A DNA stretch of 36,052 bases, taken from the NCBI RefSeq assembly GCF_003946145.1, contig NZ_RHOC01000016.1, positions 1 to 36,052 of the forward strand, written 5' to 3'. Origin of the DNA: Levilactobacillus huananensis. GTDB lineage: Bacteria > Bacillota > Bacilli > Lactobacillales > Lactobacillaceae. Shown here in pieces: positions 15,012 through 34,246 of this stretch (its first letter is position 1; the number at the start of each line of letters is the position of its first letter). The position numbers and the translations under genes were made by a program. The notes under the pieces were generated by a model. The model did not search any database. It had not been told where the DNA came from and was given only the letters and a program-made list of their open reading frames with translations.

Positions 15012-15369
15012 CAAAAAGCAGCTAGCAAAGCTAGCTGCCTCCCCCAAAGCCTCCGATTGGCCATGGCCTATTCTGTTGGAACAACCGCATCGTCAGCTTC
15101 CTCCCCAAGAAAGCTAGTGAATTGGCAATAGTTGGTTGGTGTCAGTCATGTTGTCTCTCCCCAAAGAGACAACGTGTGGTCATGAACCGGGATGGCGTTA
15201 GCTGTTGCGTTACGGCACGAACAAACTAAACGGTCGATGGTGTTCCGCGTTACCCCCCAGCAGCGTAGAAACAACCTGAAGCGGCAAACAAACCATTGTA
15301 AGAGCCTAGATGAGTCTCGTTGGAAGAACTCATCAGGCATCAAATGATTTGTATCCATCCGGATGTTAC
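15012..15369 (-). ncRNA. Candidate structured noncoding RNA with G-tract loops
   Basis: This 750-base gap (14806-15555) has no credible gene. On the minus strand a promoter (15376-15404) and an intrinsic terminator (15013-15038) bracket about 358 bases. The transcript would fold into a chain of hairpins: 15304-15338 (GATGAGT/ACTCATC core), 15242-15272, 15197-15231, 15150-15173 (perfect 9-bp stem), 15095-15115 (8 bp with one G-U) and 15037-15050. Four of these expose G-tracts in their loops (G6, G4, G4, G5), three within a UUGGGG(G)AG context. It does not show the conserved cores of tmRNA, RNase P RNA, SRP RNA or 6S RNA that I can recognise. A 14-base segment (15245-15258) matches the tyrS T-box core at 13 positions, but the T-box stem I is missing. 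Function unknown. Confidence 0.5.
15013..15038 (-). terminator. Terminator of the candidate RNA
   Basis: On the minus strand GCAGCTAGC and GCTAGCTGC form a perfect 9-bp stem with a TTT loop, followed by five T's. The orientation fixes transcription as leftward. Confidence 0.8.
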
Positions 15370-15375
15370 AAGTAC

Positions 15376-15404
15376 ATTATATGGGGGATTATGGATTTGG
15401 TGAA
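15376..15404 (-). promoter_or_regulatory. Promoter of the candidate RNA
   Basis: On the minus strand TTCACC (15404-15399) and a consensus TATAAT (15381-15376) are spaced by 17 bases; transcription would begin near 15369. Confidence 0.6.
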
Positions 15405-15555
15405 TCCCGCAATTTAAGGAGTAGGTTACTAATTTTAACCTAGTTGGTCCTGTACGTGTTATGCTAATACTAAGCGTAATTGAGAAGATTGGTCTAGTTG
15501 AATGGGGACGTCAGTAATGGTGGCGTCGGTTTAAATTTGAAAGGGAGGAATCACC

Positions 15556-16416
15556 ATGCCACAGCCGTATCACGAACGACTGAATTATACGATGGCACTG
15601 CCGCTGAGAGTTATCGATCACGGCACTTGTGGACCCAAAATGGTTCTACCGCACTGGCACAATTCTGTCGAGTTGGCTTATGCCTATCGAGGCAAGCCGG
15701 GCACGGTTCACATTGGGAACTCGACGTTTGAGATGCAAGATCACCACCTTTACGTGATCAATTCGGAAGTGGTACACAGTTACGAGACCTATCTAGACGA
15801 AGATAATCAAATTGTGACCCTTCTCTTACCCGCAGCATGGTTACGCAATGTGGTTGAAGACGAACAACTGCCGATTTGGGGACCGCTGGACCTGGATCTG
15901 AGAACAGACCCATACCGTGATTTGGGACGTGCAGTGGACACGCTAGCTACCAATGCCGTGACGGAGCCCGATCAACGGGCAGACTATCTCGCGAGTCTAG
16001 GTGCGGAATATCAATTGGTGGGTCAATTGTTAAAGCATTTGCAGGTTAATGGACAGGTTAACAATGACCAGCTGCCATTGCCGAAGCCCCTCCGACAGGC
16101 CGTTACCGAGATCCAGGAACAGTATGGCACGGCCTTTTCGATTGCGGCCTTGGCGGAACGACTGAACTATTCGAGCGTTTACTTCTCTCGGTTTTTCAAA
16201 GAGTACATGGGCGTGGCCCCTAAAGCTTATCTGGGTCAAATTCGCTTGGAACGGGCCACGGAACTTCTAATGACCTCTCAGGACTCGATTCAAACGATTG
16301 CGACCAAGACGGGCTTTCGGACGGAAAAGAACTTCTTTGTGACGTTCAAGCAGCACTTCCAAATGACGCCAATGACTTATCGTGAACGTTATGCTGCACA
16401 ACGAGCCTGGTCGTAG
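15556..16416 (+). CDS. AraC family transcriptional regulator with cupin domain
   Basis: A 286-residue regulator. The N-terminal half is a cupin-type sensing domain (LPHWHNSVELAYAYRGKPG at about 31-49, VINSEVVHSY near 75), with histidines that may bind ligand or metal. The C-terminal hundred residues carry the two helix-turn-helix motifs of AraC/XylS (FSIAALAERLNYSSVYFSRFFKEYMG and IQTIATKTGFRTEKNFFVTFKQHF). Such proteins in lactobacilli usually control carbohydrate use, but no sugar gene is adjacent, so the target is not evident; the only divergent neighbour is the candidate RNA at 15012-15369. ATG 15556 follows AAAGGGAGGAA. The stop is nine bases before the -35 of the ykpA promoter. Confidence 0.87.
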   Translation: MPQPYHERLNYTMALPLRVIDHGTCGPKMVLPHWHNSVELAYAYRGKPGTVHIGNSTFEMQDHHLYVINSEVVHSYETYLDEDNQIVTLLLPAAWLRNVVEDEQLPIWGPLDLDLRTDPYRDLGRAVDTLATNAVTEPDQRADYLASLGAEYQLVGQLLKHLQVNGQVNNDQLPLPKPLRQAVTEIQEQYGTAFSIAALAERLNYSSVYFSRFFKEYMGVAPKAYLGQIRLERATELLMTSQDSIQTIATKTGFRTEKNFFVTFKQHFQMTPMTYRERYAAQRAWS

Positions 16417-33986: not shown

Positions 33987-33992
33987 CACATC

Positions 33993-34217
33993 ATAAGCAA
34001 TGAAGCAGTACAGTAGTGAGGGTGGCACCGGTTAAGAGACCTAACGGCGCTGAGAGTTAGGACGACCATCATCACGAATTACCCTGTGGAGCGGCCGAGT
34101 GTTCGGCGGGTCATTCCGTTAACAATGACGAGCGGTTGTCAAAGTGACAACAACTTGGGTGGTAACGCGGATTTCAATTCGTCCCTGATGACTATTAGTC
34201 ATTGGGGACTTTTTTTA
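33993..34217 (+). promoter_or_regulatory. T-box leader of tyrS, tyrosine specific
   Basis: A tRNA-sensing leader of about 225 bases. The T-box core TGGGTGGTAACGCGG is at 34156-34170 and pairs to make the antiterminator; the competing terminator has GTCCC/GGGAC and ATGAC/GTCAT stems (34181-34209) and a T-run to 34217. The likely specifier codon is TAC (tyrosine) at 34080-34082, in GAATTACCC on the 3' side of stem I. Uncharged tRNA-Tyr should stabilise the antiterminator and switch tyrS on. Confidence 0.93.
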
Positions 34218-34246
34218 TTGGAAATAAACCTTAGGAGGACTTGCAG

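Follow-up and report, generated by a model that had tools for sequence, protein, structure and literature searches.

In Bacillus subtilis, RosA (S345) titrates the C-rich RNAs RoxS and FsrA as a stand-alone RNA equipped with three G-rich regions, and in Staphylococcus aureus the G-rich regions of RsaI bind the C-rich RNAs RsaG, RsaD and RsaE, with the suggestion that RsaI may also act as a sponge (PMC8216469). In Listeria, UCCC motifs carried in the loops of LhrC bind a G-rich ribosome-binding region (PMC4132741). The present analysis deals with an RNA of Levilactobacillus huananensis that may belong to the same circle of regulators. It is encoded in a stretch of 36,052 nucleotides (nt) of contig NZ_RHOC01000016.1 (positions 1 to 36,052, hereafter the window), in which a predicted gene of about 357 nt on the minus strand (15013..15369), here called G-RNA, lies divergently from a gene coding for an AraC-family regulator. 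It is near certain, as judged from sequence comparison, that the G-RNA is a real, conserved and structured gene. We consider it probable that this stand-alone structured small RNA (sRNA) acts as a sponge for C-rich sRNAs or in mutual titration with them, a function already raised in a first-pass annotation of the DNA and now supported by candidate C-rich partners, C-RNA1, C-RNA2 and C-RNA3, found in the same genomes.

The likeness to RosA and RsaI is one of published description, and the G-RNA region matches no Rfam family above threshold. Like RosA, the G-RNA is a stand-alone Gram-positive sRNA with several G-rich regions, no C-rich region and complementarity to C-rich sRNAs of its own host (PMC8216469). 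A predicted promoter and terminator of its own, several G-rich regions and complementary C-rich RNAs are thus features that the G-RNA has in common with the RosA/RsaI type. The differences from RosA are of several kinds: the G-RNA is longer (about 357 nt in its window form against about 229 nt); its G-runs stand largely in separate covarying loops, whereas in RosA the regions GRR1 and GRR2 are given as single-stranded; its candidate partners are not RoxS according to Rfam; it is divergent from an AraC gene; and the region that it shares with that gene in the window is free of cre-like sites at one mismatch or fewer, whereas RosA is repressed by CcpA (PMC8216469). RsaI (RsaOG) is likewise a stand-alone sRNA whose G-rich regions bind C-rich sRNAs, but the same source describes a C-rich mRNA-binding region in it, whereas the 35 G-RNAs compared here hold just 4 C-runs in all.

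In the window, the G-RNA promoter (15376..15404, minus strand) consists of TTCACC (15399-15404), a 17-nt spacer and TATAAT (15376-15381), which agrees with the consensus at 10 of 12 positions. Such a motif match is by itself at chance level (1 found in that kilobase against a shuffle mean of 1.2); the promoter call is supported by conservation of the -10 and start region across the genus, which BLAST retrieves in other members (e.g., query positions 13-63 in G017 and G019), and not by the motif score. The transcript would end at an intrinsic terminator with a U-tract (15013..15038, minus strand), of the form GCAGCTAGC-TTT-GCTAGCTGC-TTTTT, which a simple scan missed and which is visible in the sequence and on folding. 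Both elements had been proposed in the first-pass annotation, together with the absence of a credible gene between them, and this description holds. The 70-residue frame at 15146-15358 was rejected as protein coding, as it meets stops in G007, G009 and G032, and so were the short frames beginning behind G-runs, 11 and 19 residues long in the window RNA, which are not conserved; no conserved protein was found at this place in the relatives. Membership of a known RNA family was rejected as well, for the Rfam scan suggested at that earlier stage gave no match at gathering score in the region, the best at E up to 10 being DUF805b (11.7 bits against a gathering score of 35.6; E 2.3). The whole G-RNA folds with a z-score of -3.3 (100 shuffles).

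The G-tracts of 6, 4, 4 and 5 nt, with UUGGGG(G)AG in three of them, are all where they had first been placed. Hairpin A (15242..15272, minus strand) carries the run of six G (15253-15258) and has a local fold of -8.2 kcal/mol; hairpin B (15150..15173, minus strand), with loop UUGGGG, reaches -14.3 kcal/mol, and hairpin C (15095..15115, minus strand), with loop UGGGG, -10.3 kcal/mol. In each of these local folds, the stem end takes up one or two G of the run by pairing them with U or C, and three to four stay in the loop. The proposal of four G-loop hairpins stands for B and C, whose stem scores in the window's genome are strong (22.9 and 17.7), and only in part for the other two: A is not strong here (7.9), though it is in G009 (21.4) and G032 (19.9), and the hairpin at the fourth run (15041-15045) is weak (score 8.2, 4 pairs), with a local fold that pulls the run into the terminator region, so that this run is better viewed as flanking a conserved 3' core. 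The core, AUGGCC(A)AUCGGAGGCUUU, together with the fourth run occupies 15041..15064 (minus strand). It is among the best conserved transcribed parts of the RNA (AUGGCCAUCGGAGGCUUU) and is not explained by sponging alone; in some lineages it is shortened and the fourth run lost. Another hairpin, with a GCCGUAA loop (15203..15223, minus strand; found by eye), is retained in several lineages, and its stem is nearly invariant in the folded group (A2).

The G-RNA was compared among 35 Levilactobacillus genomes (with identifiers such as G016 for L. brevis and G032 for L. paucivorans). An RNA of the same layout adjoins the AraC gene in all 35, as established by eye and by script, with lengths from 194 to 362 nt. 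All G-RNA ends, 5' and 3', are predicted from sequence and not mapped; the RNAs were excised by script, with the terminators of G006, G017, G019 and G033 positioned by hand and the G-RNA of G029 trimmed by hand, its terminator being split by inserted DNA. Together the 35 RNAs hold 162 runs of at least four G, whereas 200 dinucleotide shuffles give 93.5 on average and never more than 111; in the window sequence alone, four such runs are only mildly unusual (shuffle mean 1.9, P 0.06). Each G-RNA has 3-6 runs of 4-7 G, usually with U before and A after (CUUGGGGGAG), and often one run adjoins the terminator. With the 6 runs in the first 20 nt set aside, which reduces the 162 to 156, the consensus is mostly CUUGGGG(G)A: U precedes 123 of 156 runs, and A follows in 122, C in 21 and T in 13. 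YU precedes 113 of the 156, i.e., the YUNR pattern, a motif of fast-pairing antisense loops. Strong hairpin loops hold 80 of the 156 runs, as compared with 4% for mock positions and 7.5% for arm swaps; their accessibility is a prediction.

The stems around these runs change in sequence and keep their pairing. With the hairpins assigned to sets A, B and C by order, counting backwards from the 3' core (n = 34, 35 and 35 genomes), eight inner stem positions are paired at 0.728, 0.879 and 0.754 (73%, 88% and 75%), against 0.432, 0.460 and 0.514 (43%, 46% and 51%) when arms are exchanged at random between species, with shuffled maxima of 0.575 for B and 0.586 for C; none of 500 arm shuffles reached the observed pairing of any of the three. 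Since the sets are ordered from the 3' core, set A blends different G-runs in genomes with additional runs. The pair counts are also biased towards pairing, the sequences being related and the loop size chosen per hairpin; the arm-swap control of the strong-loop score repeats the same choice of loop size and still separates real from swapped hairpins. The stems of A, B and C include each of the six standard pair types, and RNAalifold reports compensatory changes in 12 of 41 pairs (14 sequences) and 21 of 84 pairs (7 sequences). The loop is thus held, with the stem free to vary while pairing is kept, because the stems diverge and yet covary around the G-loops; covariation with conserved G-loops, as foreseen in the first-pass annotation, was found by arm shuffling and by RNAalifold alike.

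If such G-loops pair with RNA, a partner would be expected to carry CU(C/U)CCCCAA. This complement was searched in four genomes of the genus, and its places were fetched in two, 55 of 59 in the window's genome (the other four lie in the window contig and include the G-RNA itself) and 51 of 53 in L. brevis (the remainder being the G-RNA itself and one other). Among the intergenic places are three conserved, RNA-like loci, C-RNA1 and C-RNA3 found from both genomes and C-RNA2 from that of the window. C-RNA1, between GH65-type and CAAX-protease-type genes, is present in 35 of 35 genus genomes; C-RNA2, between adenylosuccinate-lyase-type and alpha/beta-hydrolase genes, in 34 of 35; and C-RNA3, between VTT-domain and DegV genes, in 33 of 35. 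Their folding z-scores are -8.1, -5.2 and -6.2, respectively. C-RNA1 exposes two C-runs in loops, C-RNA2 has three C-rich loops, and of the two C-runs of C-RNA3 one is in a loop and the other in an unpaired stretch ahead of its terminator. RNAalifold, run on alignments of the 30 loci fetched for each C-RNA (not all 35, 34 and 33), retained both C-run hairpins of C-RNA1 and that of C-RNA3; for C-RNA2 it kept the second hairpin and, less fully, the third, the first being absent from the consensus on that alignment. Compensated pairs number 4 in C-RNA1, 10 in C-RNA2 and 5 in C-RNA3. C-RNA1 and C-RNA3 have in common a 13-mer, ACUCCCCCAAAGU, and this seed (ACTCCCCCAAAGT) occurs in 30 of 30 copies of each. 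Among genus copies, C-RNA1 is 88-100% identical over the matched part and far more conserved than the G-RNA.

None of the three C-RNAs belongs to an Rfam family above cut-off. LhrC (RF00616) membership of the L. brevis C-RNA1 was rejected, its 24.8 bits (E 2.2) falling short of the gathering score of 110, and RsaE/RoxS (RF01820) was rejected on score as a partner in the window's genome, where its matches reach 21.2 (E 0.37), 20.4 and 14.5 bits against 79; of these weak matches, L101 lies over a gene start, and L100 is intergenic, resembles L102 and has no run of four C in the stretch read. C-RNA1 and C-RNA2 resemble LhrC in repeating C-rich loops, but C-RNA1 falls below the RF00616 threshold (PMC4132741).

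The 13-mer extends beyond the genus. Among 251 genomes it occurs in 12 of 12 genus genomes, in all 10 of a second genus (g55) and in 4 others with one match each, and the same pattern read backwards gives 5 matches in total. In g55 (L301-L310) the seed lies, as seen by eye, inside an RNA that has a U-tract and shares the two C-run hairpins of C-RNA1, and a stretch carrying the same seed and more C-runs is found in a third genus (G167, L324). The occurrence in a second genus suggests that C-RNA1 represents a wider C-rich regulator in Lactobacillaceae. In g55 no AraC orthologue was seen at E 1e-50, and the G-RNA model matched only once, and weakly (G201, E 0.06). A sponge would then be younger than its target, because the G-RNA was not found outside Levilactobacillus and C-RNA1 reaches beyond it. 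Upstream of the C-RNA1-like loci of g55 and G167, the DNA contains TTCACAnTTTCTTCACA-like repeats that, by eye, look like a two-component regulator site.

The match between the G-RNA and its candidate partners goes further than G against C. In 34 of 35 genomes the G-RNA has a stretch of 9 nt or more that matches the complement of the 13-mer, and in 27 of 35 this stretch is 10 nt or longer; the corresponding figures are 2.8% and 0.5% for dinucleotide shuffles, and 5.1% and 1.5% when the G-runs are kept and the rest is shuffled. The longest perfect match to a C-RNA of the same genome is on average 10.0 nt for C-RNA1, 10.4 nt for C-RNA3 and 8.8 nt for C-RNA2, against 7.7-7.9 nt in shuffles (30 genomes each), of which about 20% reach 9 nt. 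When the duplex energy of loop and flank windows is ranked against 60 generic windows with at least five C (mostly coding DNA and perhaps GC-richer), C-RNA3 stands out, with no more than 8 of the 60 controls better in 11 of 12 genomes. The sequence comparison supports a relation between the G-RNA and the C-RNAs, most firmly through the seed common to C-RNA1 and C-RNA3 and weakly for C-RNA2.

Several observations weigh against the sponge reading. The searched complement outnumbers its own reverse in all four genomes (59 vs 38, 75 vs 27, 76 vs 28 and 53 vs 39), and 90 of the 106 fetched places are coding by a frame-length rule in the script, leaving 7 of 55 and 9 of 51 intergenic, counts without a chance control; being mostly coding and exceeding its reverse in every genome searched, the motif as such does not mark RNA genes in particular. 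In G000 and L. brevis the 9-mer match was built in, because the partners came from the complement search in those genomes, and the remaining 33 genomes are independent of that selection and not of one another. The G-RNA of G026 matches the 13-mer complement over 8 nt only. For C-RNA2 the match barely exceeds shuffles (8.8 vs 7.9 nt) and reaches 9 nt in 14 of 30 genomes, and flank energies favour C-RNA1 in just 3 of 12 genomes (no more than 9 controls better) and C-RNA2 in 5 of 11 (no more than 10). Strong G-hairpins number 0-4 per G-RNA, with none in G010 and a single one in each of G005, G016, G018 and G028, and two genomes, G023 and G025, keep just three G-runs. Lastly, both the G-RNA and the C-RNAs are predicted from sequence.

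If the G-RNA acts as a sponge, pairing would start with a kissing contact between a G-loop and a C-loop and would extend from the loops into the stems over 9-11 base pairs. The C-seed would thereby be hidden from its mRNA targets, probably G-rich ribosome-binding sites like those bound by other C-rich sRNAs in Gram-positive bacteria, and the stability of the C-RNA may change; by analogy, the Shine-Dalgarno-like loops of the G-RNA would compete with mRNAs for C-seeds. The evolutionary pattern fits such a role because C-RNA1, with its would-be many targets, is nearly fixed and the G-RNA varies except in its loops. Control of the G-RNA probably lies with the AraC-type protein, since the two genes stand back to back in 35 of 35 genomes and an inverted repeat, GGGATT-N12-AATCCC (15385..15408, on neither strand in particular; found by eye), overlaps the G-RNA promoter here as a probable operator shared with the AraC gene. 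Repeats resembling GGGATT...ATCCCC were seen by eye in many relatives, with the left half only in some. Through this operator the AraC-type protein would probably control the G-RNA, and the signal it senses would set the level of free C-rich sRNA. Feedback is conceivable as well, for the C-RNAs could act on the ribosome-binding region of araC. In 27 of 35 genomes, the window's genome not among them, the 20 nt upstream of the araC start include a G-run; this is in itself weak evidence and a suggestion only, because G-runs also precede ordinary starts (by eye, 7 of 32 picked frames of the window have at least four G in the same interval).

Cre-like sites with at most one mismatch, counted with the cre consensus, occur in 11 of the 35 regions shared by AraC gene and G-RNA, 26-57 nt from the araC start, and are perfect in two (G030 and G034), against 0.95 and 0 in mononucleotide shuffles; there is none in the window's genome. 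They suggest catabolite control of araC in some species. A broader scheme can be drawn, which we put forward as a tentative and rather doubtful extension: the G-RNA would be a genus-wide hub that buffers several C-rich sRNAs by interchangeable kissing G-loops, driven by AraC, whose own G-run ribosome-binding site would be a target of the C-rich sRNAs and give positive feedback, and a second, independent G-run RNA beside a response-regulator gene would bring a further signal into the pool, the whole forming a two-sided titration network built on one seed.

This second G-run RNA, or leader, was seen at L124:330-585 (plus strand) in G000 and at L184 (plus strand) in G016. It has a ACUUGGGGGAGU hairpin, and G-runs in its terminator hairpin, and it lies upstream of a response-regulator-like open reading frame (L124:656-1009; PF00072, 26.2 bits, below the cut-off of 30.2). 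Its whole fold has a z-score of only -2.2, with 6 of 200 shuffles equally good. At L182 (plus strand) of L. brevis (G016), an apparent gene start carries AUUGGGGGAGCUAUG, with more G-runs in the roughly 110 nt before it, and is a possible mRNA target of C-rich sRNAs.

Other explanations of the repeated G-loops were weighed. The identical G-containing loops of the CsrB/RsmY/RsmZ family are repeated on variable hairpins, and the G-RNA is like them in its repeated G-loops; it could be a decoy for an RNA-binding protein, of the CsrB/RsmZ type, with its match to C-rich sRNAs incidental. A near-identical loop motif on stems that change freely, a hairpin number that varies as in protein decoys and the resemblance of the loop motif to the G-run that precedes the araC start (27/35) would all suit this explanation, which we nonetheless judge fairly unlikely: RNAs with complementary loops exist and are conserved (C-RNA1-3), and some G-runs are not followed by A and hence lack GGA (GUGGGGGCAAC). 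A decoy for CsrA itself was rejected, since CsrA (PF02599), the target protein of that family, is absent from 58 of 58 genomes (the control search being positive in 3 of 14 named genomes) and the A needed for GGA follows 122 of 156 runs rather than every one. The protein-binding alternative of the first-pass annotation is in this way weakened for CsrA, the sole protein tested. That the G-RNA instead pairs directly with mRNAs, through its G-loops or its conserved 3' core, is unlikely in our view. The core AUGGCCAUCGGAGGCUUU is conserved and left unexplained by sponging, and complement places lie in sense in a long frame in 17 of 55 cases in the window's genome and 13 of 51 in L. brevis; these are fewer than the antisense places (17 vs 31 and 13 vs 29), and no conserved mRNA target was identified, mRNA targets not having been searched beyond the complement places.

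The direction of action might also be reversed or mutual, the C-rich sRNAs partly silencing or destabilising a G-RNA that has another function, such as control of araC or production of a small peptide. It is in keeping with this that C-RNA1 is far better conserved than the G-RNA and is present in g55 (10/10), where AraC orthologue and G-RNA are not credibly seen, but a slowly evolving C-RNA and a fast-evolving sponge are equally predicted by sponging and the frames behind the G-runs are not conserved, which leaves such a reversal very improbable. Hardly any credence is given to an intramolecular G-quadruplex formed from four G-runs. Although 33 of 35 G-RNAs have four or more runs of at least four G, G023 and G025 retain three only, which makes a quadruplex unlikely, and many runs are separated in covarying hairpins that it would have to melt.

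Titration of C-rich sRNAs by the G-RNA, if true, would give the lactobacilli a worked example of an sRNA sponge, with one G-RNA and three named candidate C-RNAs found nearly genus-wide. It would also point to a route by which sponges may be found, starting from conserved repeated loops on covarying stems and proceeding to a search for RNAs with the complementary loop. The 35 natural versions vary in hairpin number, stem sequence and G-run length, and could be used to test how many loops a sponge needs. The G-RNA was previously unlabelled, in a group of food lactobacilli, and the C-RNAs stand outside Rfam families above cut-off; among the matches listed from the open-licence PMC literature, no paper on the G-RNA or the C-RNAs was recognised by its title or the start of its abstract.

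Searches of larger collections place the G-RNA within the genus. BLAST finds the full-length G-RNA in three near relatives at 85-87% identity, and the G-RNA, its promoter and start or its 3' end in 17 of 58 genomes including its own, with none outside Levilactobacillus. The R1 model, made for the 3' module, has only 4 base pairs and is thus mainly a sequence profile. It matched 15 of 15 genus genomes in a search of 301, matches that are partly by construction because the model was built from 30 of the 35 G-RNAs; no credible copy was found elsewhere, the 17 non-genus genomes with a best E of 0.002-0.09 being at chance level over 286 genomes. The pattern of the -10 and start region is restricted to the genus (14 of 397 genomes). 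The window RNA and C-RNA1 had zero matches in a plasmid collection. The shortest G-RNA is that of L. brevis (L047:2637-2830, minus strand), whose 194 nt hold one strong G-hairpin and three more G-runs. In G029 (L068), the DNA that interrupts the G-RNA terminator resembles an insertion sequence (IS) element by appearance.

The AraC-family regulator is encoded at 15556..16416 (plus strand) and has the AraC_binding and helix-turn-helix (HTH) domains (PF12833, PF00165 and PF02311). Its gene is present in 35 of 35 Levilactobacillus genomes. A protein query returned 15 loci in the named genomes, all Levilactobacillus and including L. brevis ATCC 14869, and among 251 genomes searched, orthologues at E 1e-50 or better occur in 12 of the genus and in 2 of another genus (31% identity). 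In L. paucivorans (G032; L003/L049), araC is seemingly split into two frames that cover residues 1-119 and 117-286. Elsewhere in the window, a T-box leader (RF00230, 115 bits) lies at 33991-34189 (plus strand), upstream of a gene at 34241 that was named from its sequence as tyrosyl-tRNA synthetase-like.
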